53,025 nt of DNA from a virus: positions 1 to 53,025 of the IMG/VR virus record IMGVR_UViG_3300029787_000071; one strand, given 5' to 3'. A program made the translations under genes and the position numbers. Below, one piece after another: positions 3,469 to 21,884 of the stretch. The notes below the pieces were generated by a model that saw nothing but the letters and a program-made list of their open reading frames with translations, ran no database searches and was not told the DNA's origin. Within the stretch, counting starts at the first letter, position 1. Each line of letters starts with the position of its first letter.

Positions 3469-3788
3469 AAAGGCATTCCTTTGGGTTTATTTATAACAGG
3501 TTTAAAATTTGTGCCAATAGATGCTACACATTCTATTTCAGGATTTATATCGGACACGCCCATCATTGTGTAAGACCCAGTTTTTGGGTTTATGTATAAA
3601 GTAAAAGTAATCATGAATTGAGTATCTCTTAACGTAAATGCGGGATACTCTCCATGTTTTGCGGCTTGAGTTGAAATACTGCCAAGCGGAAAGCACATAT
3701 TGTTAAAGGTTTGCGCCTTTACAAAAGTGATGCCACAATACAAAACACCAACAACATACATTGAAAATAGAACTATTCGTAATCTCAT
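3465..3788 (-). CDS. Small exported protein with signal peptide
   Basis: 107 aa from the ATG at 3788, chosen because it overlaps the upstream stop as TAATG; an in-frame start 12 bases earlier is possible. The N-terminus (MRLRIVLFSMYVVGVLYCGITFVKA, quoted in part: MRLRIVLF...GITFVKA) is a classical signal peptide with probable cleavage after VKA. The mature part has two cysteines and beta-like segments. It would act in the host envelope or periplasm. Function unknown; an entry-blocking or lysis-related role is possible but unsupported. Confidence 0.6.
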   Translation of the reverse strand: MRLRIVLFSMYVVGVLYCGITFVKAQTFNNMCFPLGSISTQAAKHGEYPAFTLRDTQFMITFTLYINPKTGSYTMMGVSDINPEIECVASIGTNFKPVINKPKGMPL

Positions 3789-4423
3789 TACATACCCCAA
3801 GTTTTCTTTAAATACGTCTGAACCAGAGTTGATTTTGTAAACATATCTTTTTGAGCTTTCATTAGATACGCATTTACTTCATACATGTTTTGCAAAATAA
3901 AAGACTGCTCATATGACACGTTAGAAGACATCCATCCGATTATGTTCTGCCTAAACCCCTTAGTAACTTTCTCCACACCGTGCGGGTAGATGATAGGAAA
4001 GATCACAGCTTCACCTGCGTTTAGTTTCTTACCTATTCTTCCTACCGGCGTGGCTAAAGTAAATTCTCCCCCTTCGTAGTCATCCGTTAAATTTATGCTC
4101 CAGCCGTAGTCAAAAAATACATTGTTTGATTTTGGCTGCGCTTTGAAAGCGTCTACGTGCAAGTCGTAGTAATCGCCTTCAAGGTATTTGTTATAAAAAT
4201 TTACTGATACTCTGGTAGGACAATACACGCTGTCTATGTAGTGCGTATCGTACAGCTTATCCGTAATTAGCTTCCTTACCTCGTCTGGGACACTCTTAGA
4301 TTCTTTGTTACTTTTTATGTCCTCTAGATCAGGAGCAGTATCTTCCCCATTCTTAAACGTGTTCTGGTCAATCTTGTCCAGACAAAAATTTACTTCATCT
4401 TCAGTTAATAGCTTGATAAACAT
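3788..4423 (-). CDS. 2-oxoglutarate/Fe(II)-dependent oxygenase (prolyl-4-hydroxylase-like)
   Basis: 211 aa. Contains the iron-binding facial triad H89-x-D91 (in YYDLHVDAF) and H148 (in YPHGVEKVTKG), with R158 in position to bind 2-oxoglutarate, followed by the usual GWMSS ending of the PKHD-type domain. These enzymes hydroxylate proteins or nucleic-acid bases using O2 and 2-oxoglutarate. A strong ribosome site (GGAGG, 8 bases before ATG) precedes it. The gene lies among tail and capsid genes, so a virion protein could be the substrate, but this is inference. A second such oxygenase is at 21249-21884. Confidence 0.85.
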   Translation of the reverse strand: MFIKLLTEDEVNFCLDKIDQNTFKNGEDTAPDLEDIKSNKESKSVPDEVRKLITDKLYDTHYIDSVYCPTRVSVNFYNKYLEGDYYDLHVDAFKAQPKSNNVFFDYGWSINLTDDYEGGEFTLATPVGRIGKKLNAGEAVIFPIIYPHGVEKVTKGFRQNIIGWMSSNVSYEQSFILQNMYEVNAYLMKAQKDMFTKSTLVQTYLKKTWGM

Positions 4424-14588: not shown

Positions 14589-16361
14589 TTAGTAACCAAA
14601 CGTAGAGTCAAACGGTTTTGGCTTTGCCTCTTGCATCTTGTTCATCATTGAGTTGATGGTTAGATGTCCTCTTGCGCGTGTCATGCACATGTATCGCAAA
14701 GCGTCGTAGGCGTGGTCATCTGCTTTTGTATCTACATCTTCAGGGTTTGTCTTTGACAGTGGTAGCCCTGAGAGAGTACGTATCAGATGTGTGCAGGTTG
14801 AAAGTATCTTTATTCTTGGTTGTTGTGTAAACTCGTCTACCTGCAAACGCCTGTGTAGTTCTAGTTTACCTGCAATCCTGTTTCTATCTGATGGAGTAAA
14901 TCTAGCTCCACAACGAATGAGAGTTTCAGCGATTGAAGGTCCGGTGCCTGTCCTGTTCCAACAGGAAGAGTCAAGCACCGAGTAGTACATGCCGGGATCA
15001 CCTCCCTCAAGATTTACAATGATATTGGCTAGAGTTTCTGCAGTCTGTCCTTTGCCGTAGAACTCCCTGTAAATCCAAAGGGTATCATCCCAATCAACTG
15101 CGCCCCACAGGACACAAGAGGGGGCGGCATACCCGTAGTCTGCTGCACGAAGGCGTAACCAACCTTGGGGTATCTGTGCCTGTGAGGCTTCCACAACATG
15201 AATGCTGCGGGAAAACTCTGGGAACGCCGCTCCCTCTGCGACATCCCAATCCCCTTCTAGAAGCCGCCTTCGTTCGACTTCTGGGAGCGACCTCAACATG
15301 GCTTCATATTCACCAGTTTCAGCGAGGTAGGGGTTATCAGTCAGACGCGCCGGAATGAATTTACGAAGAAACAGCGGCTGACCTGCTTTACCGTTAGTTG
15401 CTGTCTCAGGCCACAAAAGAGCGTTACCTGTATCAACATCGGTAGCTGCAAACGGTGTGTTAGGCGGTGCAGGGTCAATGTACATCTTCTTGACCCACCA
15501 ACCACCTACCCCTCCGGGGTTTCCTGTGCAGCGCATATATGCGTCAATCTGCGGGTCCGTTGTACGAAGTCTGGAGCGCAGATACTCCCACACGTAGGGA
15601 GTTGGGTAGTGCGTTATCTCGTCAATACCAATCCAAGTAAAAGCCTGACCTTGGTAGCGTGTTACGTCCTTGTCTTTGTCGAGGTAGGAGAACCATGCCG
15701 TAGCCCCAGACGGGAACTGCCACATAGCCTTGGACTCTCTGAATACGGCACCGGGAAAAGCTTTTGGATAGAGTTGTTTGCTTTTATCAACCAGTTCTGT
15801 AAGCTCGTCCAAAGTACGACGAATAATAAGAGCGCGATGATTGGGGTTGCTACAGTAGCGAAGCAGATCAGCAAGAAGAGCATAAGACTTGCCCCCGCCA
15901 GCAGCGCCGCCATAAAAAACATCCCTTTCAGGGCTTGCCAAAAAGTCAGTCTGCGGCCCCGAGTTTGGTTTGAAGATAACCTCTGCTTCATCCTCTACTA
16001 ACTCCCTTACGGGTTTTGGTACATTCTGTAGTGTGGTATCTTCAATGACCTTAGCACCGTTCTTGTTGAACAAAGCCTGTTCAACTTTCTTGATGCTGTC
16101 TTTCTTCTCTTTGGCCTTAGATGCTTTCTTCTGTGCTTTCTTCTTTGCCCTGTCCGCGTTGCGAACCGCAGCGGCAGAGGCCCGTCTCGCTCTTTCTTTT
16201 GCAGAGAGACGGTAGTTACCCTTTTCGCCCTCGGCTAATTTGGGACGGCCACGCTTGCGCTTGACAGGCTCTTCTCTTACGTCAGCTTTATCAACCAAAG
16301 GCAGGTGACTTTCGCTTGACGTTTTTCTTGTGCCTTCGCTCTGGTGATCTAAATCGTCCAA
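14589..16361 (-). CDS. terL: Terminase large subunit
   Basis: 590 aa, the packaging motor. Walker A is GGAAGGGKS at 151-159 and Walker B TWIGIDEIT at 242-250; the C-terminal nuclease has AADYGYAAP, SVLDSSC and the late KADDHAYDALRYM. The first 100 residues are a lysine/arginine-rich extension with an AT-hook core (KRKRGRPK at 35-42), unusual for this family. The start is TTG at 16361 with AAAGG upstream; no ATG fits. A small basic gene overlaps its first 71 bases. Confidence 0.92.
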   Translation of the reverse strand: MDDLDHQSEGTRKTSSESHLPLVDKADVREEPVKRKRGRPKLAEGEKGNYRLSAKERARRASAAAVRNADRAKKKAQKKASKAKEKKDSIKKVEQALFNKNGAKVIEDTTLQNVPKPVRELVEDEAEVIFKPNSGPQTDFLASPERDVFYGGAAGGGKSYALLADLLRYCSNPNHRALIIRRTLDELTELVDKSKQLYPKAFPGAVFRESKAMWQFPSGATAWFSYLDKDKDVTRYQGQAFTWIGIDEITHYPTPYVWEYLRSRLRTTDPQIDAYMRCTGNPGGVGGWWVKKMYIDPAPPNTPFAATDVDTGNALLWPETATNGKAGQPLFLRKFIPARLTDNPYLAETGEYEAMLRSLPEVERRRLLEGDWDVAEGAAFPEFSRSIHVVEASQAQIPQGWLRLRAADYGYAAPSCVLWGAVDWDDTLWIYREFYGKGQTAETLANIIVNLEGGDPGMYYSVLDSSCWNRTGTGPSIAETLIRCGARFTPSDRNRIAGKLELHRRLQVDEFTQQPRIKILSTCTHLIRTLSGLPLSKTNPEDVDTKADDHAYDALRYMCMTRARGHLTINSMMNKMQEAKPKPFDSTFGY

Positions 16362-18894: not shown

Positions 18895-19554
18895 CTAATC
18901 CTTTGCGTATAAGTTATCAAATGTAATGCTGGGGTCCATGTAGCTATCATTAATCTCTGCACTGTGTGTGTGTTGGCTAGGCACAAAGTCTGGTGGACCT
19001 TCACCTGTAACCCACAAAGCAGGATTTGTAACCCGTACCCTGTTGTTGGGGAGAGCAACTATATTTCCTGTAAACTCTCCTGCGTCTATTAGCTCTAGCA
19101 CATGAGATTGTTTGTGCTGCGCTGGGTCGTCTGAAATGTGACTGTCGGTGTAGTCCACAGTGAACATATACCGACCTGTATAAAACTCTCCCCCTATCTT
19201 ACACATCCAAGGGCTAGACGATACTCTGTCCATGCTAAAGACTGCGTGGTTTCTGGAGGAGCAGTCCCAAGGTTGTGCAAAGTGAGTGGGCATCTTTTGC
19301 GGCCACTCTTCAAGAATACTATCAGCGACTAATGCTGTGATGGGCATTCTAGCCCACATAGCTCCACCGTGAATATTCTCTTCTTCTTCACAGCCAGTAA
19401 ACACTACGTTAAAACTAAGACATCTGTCCGGTATTGTATTTACTGCTATTGCTAGTGCATGAAGGTACTCTCCCTCATACTCTACGTGATTATGTGTAAA
19501 CTCTTTACGCACCCAACACTTAAAGTGTGGGATATTAGAGGCTAAGTAAGCCAT
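18895..19554 (-). CDS. Conserved-looking hypothetical phage protein
   Basis: 219 aa, acidic to neutral and unlike its basic neighbours. It begins MAYLASNIPHFKCWVRKEF and has blocks VVFTGCEEEENIHGGAMWAR, CSSRNHAVFSMDRVSS and GEFYTGRYMFTVDYTDSH, with many His, Cys and aromatic residues. Similar proteins occur in marine phage genomes by memory, without assigned function. It could be enzymatic or metal-binding; nothing decisive is visible. Confidence 0.65.
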   Translation of the reverse strand: MAYLASNIPHFKCWVRKEFTHNHVEYEGEYLHALAIAVNTIPDRCLSFNVVFTGCEEEENIHGGAMWARMPITALVADSILEEWPQKMPTHFAQPWDCSSRNHAVFSMDRVSSSPWMCKIGGEFYTGRYMFTVDYTDSHISDDPAQHKQSHVLELIDAGEFTGNIVALPNNRVRVTNPALWVTGEGPPDFVPSQHTHSAEINDSYMDPSITFDNLYAKD

Positions 19555-19576: not shown

Positions 19577-19978
19577 CTAGCACTTCCATCTTTTTCTAGC
19601 CTGACGCAGACGGCTATTTGGATCTCTAGCCGCCTTGGGAAACTTCTTCATCTGTCCTGCAGAGCGAGCGCAGAAGGACTTACGTCTCTTCGCGTCTTTG
19701 CTACCGGGTTCAACCTTGCCAGTAACAGCGCCCTTTAGTTTAGAGCCGGGGTTAGCCTTGCGATATGCTTTAATGCCCTTCTCGGTCATGCCAGCGCCCT
19801 TCTTAGTGGGTCGCTTCATTCCCTTACCTTTGGGCATTACATCAGGCTTCCTGACTCCTCCTCCCTTTGCGTACTCCTTACGGCTAATCGCTGCCACCTT
19901 CTCTGACTGCCGCTTGTGCAGCTTGGAGGCTTTGTTTAGCTGTTGTGAGACTTCCCTTAGTTCTTCCTTTGCGGACAT
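19577..19978 (-). CDS. DUF6321-like basic protein with GGGVRKP motif
   Basis: 133 aa. Residues about 1-35 form a coiled coil (KEELREVSQQLNKASKLHKR); then EYAKGGGVRKPD; then a conserved block with MTEKGIKAYRKANPGSKLK, AVTGKVEPGSKDAKRRKSFC, ARSAGQMKKFPKAARDPNSR and an Arg/Lys-rich end RQARKRWKC. The last block is, from memory, the widespread phage family DUF6321. Very basic, so possibly nucleic-acid-binding. Function is not established. Confidence 0.7.
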   Translation of the reverse strand: MSAKEELREVSQQLNKASKLHKRQSEKVAAISRKEYAKGGGVRKPDVMPKGKGMKRPTKKGAGMTEKGIKAYRKANPGSKLKGAVTGKVEPGSKDAKRRKSFCARSAGQMKKFPKAARDPNSRLRQARKRWKC

Positions 19979-20196: not shown

Positions 20197-20733
20197 TTAC
20201 TTCATCCTCGGTTTACGAATAGGTCCACCCATTCTACGGTTCATGGCATATACCTTGCCACCACCAGCTTTCTTTTGACTCTTATAAGCAGCGGCTCCTC
20301 TTCCAAGCTGAATGGCTTTGTCTGTAGCTTCTTTTAGCTCTTTGCTGCCCCCATAGGGTTTTCCCTCTTGAGAGGGTTCAGGATTTATCATGTTATCCAT
20401 GATAGATGCTACAGCACCACTAAAGCTTTTTTTAGCGGCTGCAATCTTTTCAGCCGTTAGCGGCGGTCTTGCTCTAGAACCAACGCGCTTTCCAACAGCA
20501 GCATCTGCTTGCGCTCTATCCATACCAGCTTTGGCCGCGCTTACTTTTGAGTTAAACCGCTTCTGCATCATACGCATCGCTTTTCTGCGCTGGGCGTTAG
20601 TAGCCCCTTCTTTTTTAGCAGACGCATCAAACTCTTTTAAAAGTGCACCCGGACTTCTACGCCCTTCAACTACTTTTTCTAACGCTTCGTCTAAATCTCT
20701 ATTTGTAATTTCAATTTTTCCAAATTTAGCCAT
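20197..20733 (-). CDS. Basic helical protein with C-terminal GGPIRKPRMK tag
   Basis: 178 aa. Mostly helical and basic (DEALEKVVEGRRSPGALLKEF; AQRRKAMRMMQKRF; ISAAKAGMDRAQADAAV-like segments), with a C-terminal end AGGGKVYAMNRRMGGPIRKP that resembles the GGGVRKP tag of neighbouring proteins. Its start shares one base with the stop of the cysteine-rich gene. Function unknown; structural or DNA-binding by composition. Confidence 0.6.
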   Translation of the reverse strand: MAKFGKIEITNRDLDEALEKVVEGRRSPGALLKEFDASAKKEGATNAQRRKAMRMMQKRFNSKVSAAKAGMDRAQADAAVGKRVGSRARPPLTAEKIAAAKKSFSGAVASIMDNMINPEPSQEGKPYGGSKELKEATDKAIQLGRGAAAYKSQKKAGGGKVYAMNRRMGGPIRKPRMK

Positions 20734-20927
20734 TACCCGTACCTCCCTTGTTTTTTGTACATCTGCTTACAATGGCAATCTCCACAGTCACAATGAAGAC
20801 ATGGCTCTGGGCAATGACACTCCTGCGGTTGACATACGCATGTGATGCACTGATCATCTTCTTTTTGTTTTTCTGGCGTGTGTTGAATCATGTAGAACGC
20901 CGCGTATGGTCCTTGATATGCAGACAT
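20733..20927 (-). CDS. Cysteine-rich metallothionein-like protein
   Basis: 64 aa with ten cysteines between residues 27 and 53 (27, 30, 32, 37, 39, 43, 46, 48, 51, 53) in CxC and CxxC pairs, with three histidines among them, such as CLHCDCGDCHC. This pattern suits binding of zinc or copper ions, as in bacterial metallothioneins. It is the first gene after a near-perfect leftward promoter, so it should be strongly transcribed; the leader lacks an obvious Shine-Dalgarno sequence. The role (metal buffering, structural metal site, or redox) is open. Confidence 0.6.
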   Translation of the reverse strand: MSAYQGPYAAFYMIQHTPEKQKEDDQCITCVCQPQECHCPEPCLHCDCGDCHCKQMYKKQGRYG

Positions 20928-21040
20928 TGTTTTTTATTGGAGAAAAGGCAGCTAACTTAATCTCGTCTCACAACTCTCCACTAGAAAAAATCTTATGTTT
21001 ATTGTTGGAGTGTAGACAGACTAATGGCTGCTAACTATCT

Positions 21041-21068
21041 ATTATAACGTCTATATAGGACTTGTCAA
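21041..21068 (-). promoter_or_regulatory. Leftward sigma70 promoter of the late block
   Basis: On the minus strand TTGACA (21068-21063), 16-base spacer, TATAAT (21046-21041): both hexamers are perfect. It would start transcription about 21034, giving a leader near 105 bases before the cysteine-rich gene and then the structural genes. It mirrors the rightward promoter at 21110-21137. Confidence 0.85.
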
Positions 21069-21109: not shown

Positions 21110-21137
21110 TTGACAGATTGGAAATGGGCTGTATAAT
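21110..21137 (+). promoter_or_regulatory. Rightward sigma70 promoter for the 2OG oxygenase gene
   Basis: TTGACA (21110-21115), 16-base spacer, TATAAT (21132-21137), perfect hexamers and the same spacing as the leftward partner. Transcription would begin near 21144, upstream of a GC hairpin and tandem repeats in the leader. Confidence 0.85.
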
Positions 21138-21237: not shown

Positions 21238-21248
21238 AAGGAATGAAT

Positions 21249-21884
21249 ATGGATAGTGCGCCTGAAGAAGTTGCAGAAGTTACAAGGCCGTGGTCCCTAT
21301 CCTCGTATACGTTTAACAGTTTCGCTCAGTATATTCAATATTTTAATCCTGATGAGTGTGAACAGTACATCCGTGATGCTCAAAAGGGTTTAAGAACTAC
21401 GTCATTTAAAAAAGGTGAGGTTGGTAGCCCAGAGGCTAACGCTAGTTTTGAATTAAGAAACTCCGATGTGTGTTTTTTCAAAACACATAAATCTGAAAAT
21501 AACCCCCTATTCTCAAAATTAACAGAAGTTCTGATAAATGCTAACCAATCCTTCTTTGGATATGACATTTTTGAGATAGAGGCTGCACAATTTTCTACAT
21601 ATTCTTCTGAATATAAAGGGTTTTATAATAAACATGTTGATATTATGCCTAATTCTTCTGGAATAGGCGTTAGAAAATTAAGTTTTAGTGTACAATTAAG
21701 CGACCCAGACTCGTACAAGGGCGGTGACCTTCTTTTACATACTACTAATAAACCCACTCAAGCTCCAAAAGAGATTGGAAGTGTAACTATATTTCCCAGC
21801 TTTACACTTCACGAGGTTACACCTGTAACAGAAGGTGTACGGTACTCATTAGTCGGCTGGGTAACAGGTCCAGCGTGGAAATAG
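21249..21884 (+). CDS. 2-oxoglutarate/Fe(II)-dependent oxygenase (PKHD type)
   Basis: 211 aa from ATG 21249, preferred to ATG 21243 because AAAAGGA is about 7 bases before it. Iron ligands H129-x-D131 (YNKHVDIMPN) and H188 (TLHEVTP), 2-oxoglutarate-binding R198 (GVRYSLVGW), and the strand GGDLLLHTTN before them define the prolyl-hydroxylase-like fold. It is a monocistronic gene driven by a consensus promoter with an elaborate leader, which suggests tightly controlled early expression. Substrate unknown; base or protein hydroxylation are both possible. Only distantly similar to the oxygenase at 3788-4423. Confidence 0.82.
   Translation: MDSAPEEVAEVTRPWSLSSYTFNSFAQYIQYFNPDECEQYIRDAQKGLRTTSFKKGEVGSPEANASFELRNSDVCFFKTHKSENNPLFSKLTEVLINANQSFFGYDIFEIEAAQFSTYSSEYKGFYNKHVDIMPNSSGIGVRKLSFSVQLSDPDSYKGGDLLLHTTNKPTQAPKEIGSVTIFPSFTLHEVTPVTEGVRYSLVGWVTGPAWK

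Follow-up and report, generated by a model that had tools for sequence, protein, structure and literature searches.

Among known clusters of four metal ions an eleven-ligand set recurs, as Zn4Cys9His2 in the bacterial metallothionein SmtA and as Zn4Cys11 in the mammalian alpha domain. Closely spaced cysteines of the CxxCxC and CxCxxCxC types are also able to ligate iron-sulfur centers or Cu(I). Marine bacteria are limited by trace metals, and phages are usually discussed for the carbon, phosphorus and nucleotide genes that they carry and not for metal handling. Here we describe a cysteine-rich phage miniprotein that resembles metallothioneins in composition and that appears to belong to a large group of viral proteins.

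At 53,025 bases, the DNA analyzed here (the window) is a contig of viral origin. The large terminase shares 51-56% identity with the terminases of Roseobacter phage CRP-2, Pelagibacter phage HTVC115P and Puniceispirillum phage HMO-2011, and a partial DnaJ-like stretch lies in the DNA polymerase A. A DNA polymerase A with a DnaJ-like domain structure is described for HMO-2011-type phages in PMC9038755, and by these sequence features the window phage is of the HMO-2011 type. An earlier sequence-only reading had singled out one small gene, noting ten cysteines and three histidines within 27 residues, and had called it metallothionein-like and the first gene of the late block. The composition is confirmed for residues 27-53 of a 64-amino-acid open reading frame (Table 1), and the position fits as well, since the genes for the small and large terminase subunits and the portal follow downstream on the same strand. 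The window also holds a second 2OG-Fe(II) oxygenase gene (phrog_61; 3788-4423, minus strand), besides the one that faces the miniprotein gene.

Table 1. Features around the miniprotein gene, in window coordinates.
Feature	Coordinates	Strand	Remarks
Cys/His-rich miniprotein gene, 64 aa	20733..20927	-	Intact and conserved in relatives; purifying selection
N-terminal motif [QKR]GP[YF]xA[FY] region, residues 1-13	20889..20927	-	In most members of the local family
Cys core, residues 27-53, C-x2-C-x-C-x4-C-H-C-x3-C-x2-C-x-C-x2-C-x-C, 11 ligand positions	20769..20849	-	Pattern kept in 27/27 distinct proteins
Miniprotein stop codon	20735-20733	-	
Structured 5' leader RNA, hairpin GCAGC...GCUGC with inner UUAGUCUGUCU/AGACGAGAUUAA stem	20928..21035	-	Conserved; folding more stable than that of shuffles (z -2.66)
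Perfect sigma70-type promoter, TTGACA-16-TATAAT	21041..21068	-	Conserved upstream in relatives
2OG-Fe(II) oxygenase gene, divergent	21243..21884	+	Shares intergenic region with miniprotein gene
Next late-operon gene, 178 aa, unknown product	20197..20733	-	Start overlaps miniprotein stop (TAATG); several relatives lack it or have another gene there
Operon marker gene, phrog_10346-like, ends SFCARSAGQMKKFPKA...	19577..19978	-	Near miniprotein across lineages
phrog_3704-family gene	18895..19554	-	Deposited elsewhere as 'PurM' or 'ferredoxin'; homologues neighbor wider viral miniproteins
Terminase large subunit	14589..16361	-	Anchor for survey of relatives

The miniprotein is the product of a real, conserved gene and not of a chance frame. 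The reading frame runs from an ATG through 64 codons to a TAA. The core, which has no aromatic residues, is 37% cysteine, against 0.76% in the main window proteins; at that background the binomial probability of at least ten cysteines in 27 residues is 5e-15. Across the six frames of the window no stop-free stretch of 27 residues holds more than ten, and the corresponding maxima in 30 dinucleotide shuffles were 5-9. In the Cys core of relatives dN is 0.01-0.08 with dS ranging from 0.15 to saturation, such that the miniprotein is under purifying selection. Frameshifts in relatives, named at the outset as grounds for doubting translation, were looked for, and neither a frameshift nor an internal stop occurs in any homologue read, although a few end at contig edges. 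That the frame is an untranslated accident in the operon leader is thus scarcely credible: the ATG has no Shine-Dalgarno sequence before it and the small frame has no family model, but the chance test is negative, silent sites change while the ligands stay fixed, the stop overlaps the start of the next gene, and the frame is kept in 27 distinct homologues. On the shuffle and binomial tests and the silent-site changes we rejected a chance open frame.

The gene was described initially as lying directly after the strongest promoter. Its promoter is indeed one of only two sites in the window that match TTGACA-16-TATAAT at 12 of 12 positions, the other being its divergent neighbor at 21110 (plus strand), and the two face away from each other in the region that separates the miniprotein gene from the oxygenase gene. 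However, a conserved leader of about 113 nucleotides intervenes before the ATG. A scan with the 5' part of this leader matched 17 contigs, of which five were new, and all five then turned out to carry a divergent version of the miniprotein gene. A covariance model built from 12 leaders found, outside its training set and upstream of the miniprotein, L120, L121, L122 and L124 at 96-98 bits, with weaker matches in L125 (31 bits), L135 (26) and L118 (25) and marginal ones in L126 (18 bits, E 0.047) and L140 (15 bits, E 0.43); it reported no match in L128, L130, L132 or L133. A hairpin is predicted in all 12 further leaders of the gene that were folded (z -1.8 to -5.5), three of which (L095, L014 and L019) come from the training set, and their stem sequences differ widely. 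In the window and its relatives the interior UCUAC/GAGA is fairly constant while the stems change. Covariation by RNAalifold among the close leaders is weak, with one of 21 pairs changed on both sides; the sequence alignment of distant leaders is not structural and was left out of the pair counts. An Rfam search with the leader returned nothing credible.

The reverse complement of the hairpin scores with the covariance model as well, and the leader is therefore not specific evidence for the miniprotein. Moreover, L145, the one marker-bearing relative without the gene, also lacks a significant hairpin (z 0.01), so that leader and gene are inseparable in these data. The RNA looks like a conserved late leader, for which protection of the mRNA 5' end, antitermination and regulation are candidate jobs.

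Twelve miniprotein loci came from an initial scan of viral contigs, and an alignment-based scan brought the total to 19, all of which keep the ten cysteines except L020, where the contig end cuts the gene and nine are visible. Two architectures occur among close relatives, with synteny in most of them. In the commoner one, a protein with an N-terminal MSAYQGPYAAFYMI stretch is encoded by the first late-operon gene, divergent from the 2OG-Fe(II) oxygenase gene where that is present. The other, in L009-L012, lacks the N-terminal motif, which is also absent from L126, L128, L130 and L140; a C-terminal tail, WGEPTVEME, is absent from the window type; L014, L017 and L019 have both tails and so link the two architectures. 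L010 represents another phage type, with a terminase match of only 25% identity over part of the protein, and there an endolysin gene and two small genes immediately precede the miniprotein gene, while the opposite strand carries a 2OG-Fe(II) oxygenase gene. In that contig (4393-9246) the gene ends a lysis-type run and faces genes for Hsp20, the oxygenase and a ribonucleotide reductase similar to that of the window. A DNA pattern for the C-terminal half of the window protein matched 70 stretches, comprising the family and noise from other frames. We also noted an unrelated Cys/His-rich protein tail, YICPHCGCGTCYCCPECGEQCPNHHHTCC, in L077 (3451-3711, plus strand).

Anchoring the survey on the terminase, we read the best 80 loci of at least 600 matching stretches. 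In 18 of the 80 the operon marker has a homologue with 1 kb or more of contig upstream of it, and the miniprotein frame is present in 17 of them, the exception being L145, whose terminase is 75% identical. The 17 include near-duplicates (L115/L116/L015 and L120/L121/L122). L118 has the miniprotein and no marker match. Most other loci in this survey end short of the miniprotein position and are uninformative, and five with at least 5 kb upstream and terminases about 64-66% identical (L150, L158, L159, L161 and L164) have neither marker nor miniprotein. No comparable Cys-rich late gene was found around the terminases of HMO-2011, CRP-2, HTVC115P or ctYwJ313. Divergence of the miniprotein can run far ahead of that of the phage: in L093/L090 it is only 46% identical to the window protein, with the ligand set retained, even though the L093 terminase is 96% identical. 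L101 (G003) gives the same pair of values against the window, 96% for terminase and 46% for miniprotein, and its adjoining genes are replaced. This latter comparison makes the beginning of the late operon look like an exchange hot spot.

All 27 distinct proteins fit the rule C-x2-C-x-[C/H]-x(1-4)-C-H-C-x(3-13)-C-x(2-22)-C-x-C-x2-C-x-C, with eleven ligand positions. Because we collected these proteins by Cys patterns, a profile and the terminase anchor, members that had lost ligands could have been missed. The third ligand is Cys in 19 proteins and His in 8, giving ten Cys plus the CHC His in the window type and nine Cys plus two His in the sister lineages. Profiles of the Cys and His types match each other with a probability of 98% (E 1.5e-14, 61 columns), and by this comparison the two are one family. 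Because eleven Cys/His positions are invariant, Cys and His exchange for one another and spacer lengths are free, a metal-thiolate protein is strongly suggested. The same pattern, in which the number of ligands is fixed and their chemistry interchangeable, is as expected under selection on metal ligation, and it is probable that the miniprotein binds metal. From the match of eleven ligands to Zn4Cys9His2 and Zn4Cys11 we infer four metal ions. Metal binding, stoichiometry and metal identity are thus inferences, whereas the conserved gene and its invariant ligand set are shown.

The His-type motif C-x2-C-x-H-x-C-H-C-[DE], searched as DNA, matches at least 120 stretches in viral contigs. The 119 viral loci read, among the matches listed, gave 119 motif matches, at least 113 of them distinct, and all lie in stop-to-stop frames of fewer than 110 residues; none occurred in 4.5 million bases of a Markov control built on these loci. 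At least eight cysteines are present in 108 of the 113 distinct matches listed, and CxCxxCxC follows the motif in 63 of the 119 loci listed. Counted from first to last ligand, 110 of the 113 listed have at least 11 Cys plus His, with modes at 11 (48) and 12 (38) and none at 9 or 10; since the motif itself fixes six, the informative part is the five or more further ligands in those 110. Among those listed, 78 matches have the strict topology, with Cys as the seventh ligand in 41 of them and His in 37. In the genomes of 84,980 prokaryote species the motif occurs in 95 stretches, and none of the 80 read has CxCxxCxC within 70 residues. By eye only one of these 80, L377 in a Bacteroidetes draft contig, resembles a real member, and it is doubtful.

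The window type has Cys at the third ligand where the wider motif has His, and is linked to that motif via the syntenic nine-Cys sisters. A direct profile comparison of the window type with the wider group gave a weaker match, with a probability of 74% (E 2.7e-5), against 3% for metallothionein. Ten representatives of the group had no Pfam match above cut-off and no significant PHROG match. The miniprotein appears to be part of a large, unnamed group of viral miniproteins. We tentatively entertain, at somewhat short of even confidence, a broader proposal: that phages, many of them marine, carry a large virus-specific superfamily of proteins of 35-80 residues with a conserved 11-ligand Cys/His cluster, separate from cellular metallothioneins and almost entirely overlooked by gene callers and family libraries, which very different phage types would use to control zinc (or copper) in infection, from genes in the replication cluster, beside baseplate or spike genes, or in first position in the late operon.

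A recurrent neighbor in this wider group is the phrog_3704 family, with same-strand homologues at 38 of the 119 viral loci listed, 35 of them with gene centers within 1 kb. In deposited phages these homologues are named PurM, phosphoribosylaminoimidazole synthetase, ferredoxin or hypothetical, the names PurM and ferredoxin coming from cyanophages and pelagiphages; the gene has no significant PDB relative, and its product names look unreliable. By eye, other neighbors among the loci listed are PAAR-like (12), gp25-like (14) and lysozyme-like (10) genes. No single context covers all loci, and so function is unreadable from context alone. In the cultured Pelagibacter phage HTVC023P, a putative frame ending FCFECHHDCHCDKICPKCSCYTC... 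occupies an unannotated gap behind the phrog_3704 homologue, after gp44 (L394, about 3644-3748), with CxxCxHxCHCD and a second Cys cluster. Candidate frames such as this one exemplify a class of tiny genes missed by current annotation. HTVC027P gp12, which adjoins a phrog_3704 homologue, is a looser Cys/His protein, and HTVC008M, HTVC033P, P-RSM4 and 023Pt_psg01 have no such frame beside theirs. In tblastn searches of phage records the low-complexity filter can drop short Cys-rich queries, so that a missing or non-significant match there is weak evidence.

How the miniprotein acts can be phrased as a conditional series of steps. It would be made in quantity late in infection, as the first late-operon product, from a strong promoter of the host sigma70 type; its eleven ligands (ten Cys plus the CHC His, or nine Cys plus two His in the sisters) would hold most likely four Zn(II); and, having taken up zinc or another soft metal, it could buffer that metal or hand it to phage proteins during virion building. 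We give about an even chance to this reading, in which a small virus-specific protein is folded around a polynuclear metal-thiolate cluster, likely of four Zn(II), and buffers or donates metal, the role as buffer or donor being a guess. Counted against a cluster is that AlphaFold, run without metal, gives no fold for the window type (pLDDT 48.9); the nine-Cys type reaches 60.6, with a weak beta hairpin. The ends of the protein bear on the choice as well. Conserved tails (QGPYxAFxM and WGEPTVEME) suggest that the protein binds a partner, and a pure buffer would need none; the miniprotein could instead be an adaptor stabilized by two small structural zinc sites (CxxCx[H/C]..CHC..C and CxCxxCxC), with tails that bind a phage or host target such as RNA polymerase, a part of the virion or the phrog_3704 protein. 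Such an adaptor is a substantial possibility, if one that we hold at clearly less than even. It agrees with the conservation of tails in most of the local family, with the recurrence of phrog_3704 beside the wider loci, and with the linkers of the sisters, which are 14-22 residues long, beta-like, and contain hydrophobic and aromatic residues (one to four aromatics in the core in six of the eight nine-Cys sisters). These long, partly hydrophobic linkers favor the adaptor, although they are equally compatible with a folded zinc protein that has two sites and with a loose metallothionein. Conversely, tails are lost singly, the N-terminal one in L009-L012 and the C-terminal one in the window type, and ligands never; this combination of tail loss with perfect ligand retention favors a buffer or donor. 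In the window type, moreover, the two halves are fused into one run with two-residue spacers, probably too tight for two ordinary fingers.

It is improbable that the cysteines serve thiol or redox chemistry, scavenging oxidants or forming disulfides during infection or lysis with metal incidental, even though lysis-type genes adjoin the miniprotein gene in L009-L012 (the order was read in L010) and PMC9337993 discusses redox buffering as something that a bacterial metallothionein may additionally do. Redox function alone leaves unexplained the fixed spacing of CxCxxCxC, the invariant CHC His and the exchange of Cys for His. Slightly more doubtful is an iron-sulfur or copper protein, which would accord with the ligating capacity of the CxxCxC and CxCxxCxC motifs and with the 2OG-Fe(II) oxygenase genes nearby; eleven ligands with free spacers, however, appear to match no common Fe-S ligand set, and no Fe-S family matches. 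If a widespread phage-specific metal-cluster protein does exist, the management of metal by phages in the infected cell becomes directly testable.

The label metallothionein-like holds in size, composition and the CxCxxCxC block, but not in family: in the HMM search that the sequence-only reading had proposed no metallothionein model matches the window protein, and profile comparison with bacterial metallothioneins aligns only 11 columns. Pfam, PHROGs, NCBIfam and the PDB returned nothing for the window miniprotein. PF02069 had no match at E<=10 in any of 14 members, and its genome search was negative for the one genome here and matched 4 of 14 control genomes, in one of them over the cut-off. 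In hhalign comparisons with bacterial metallothioneins only the CxCxxCxC stretch aligned, with a probability of 21.5% or 4.9%. The eukaryotic models PF12749 and PF02067 did not match the window protein and gave only sub-threshold hits to sister or wider members (PF12749, E 0.13 and 0.99; PF02067, E 0.011). Known zinc-finger and iron-sulfur families gave no significant profile or fold match, the fold search with Foldseek having used a low-confidence predicted model that returned nothing credible. We rejected membership in the bacterial or eukaryotic metallothioneins, there being no profile match above cut-off, and likewise known PDB relatives, with no significant match. Our literature searches, which covered subscription journals and preprints thinly, recovered no publication that describes such a phage metallothionein.

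Several likenesses nonetheless stand beside these differences. The window protein has the broad features of metallothioneins (below about 10 kDa, CxC and CxxC arrays, no aromatics between cysteines), and it may work like a metallothionein, but it is a member of no metallothionein family. With PF12749 and PF02067 it shares dense CxC/CxxC and little else that is conserved. All 14 A2 members match phrog_27696, a family of 44 positions and unknown function, weakly over a short Cys stretch (best E 0.05, not significant). The bacterial metallothioneins SmtA/BmtA (PF02069; PDB 1jjd, 6gv6, 6gv7 and 6grv) resemble the miniprotein in small size, in CxCxxCxC and in a mixed set of His and Cys ligands; the nine Cys plus two His of SmtA are also the count in the sister types. 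However, CxCxxCxC lies on the C-terminal side of the core in the miniprotein (27/27) and is N-terminal in SmtA, and the PF02069 segment Y-C-S-x2-C-A, within the middle G..YCS..CA...H, is missing, with nothing aligning outside CxCxxCxC. Microcystis phage MaAM05 carries another small Cys-rich phage protein, deposited as a 'hypothetical protein' (111775-111996); that gene (L400, 1498-1719) encodes a bacterial-type metallothionein. Being 43.6% identical to SmtA, the MaAM05 protein belongs to the host-type family, to which the window family has no profile relation beyond CxCxxCxC.
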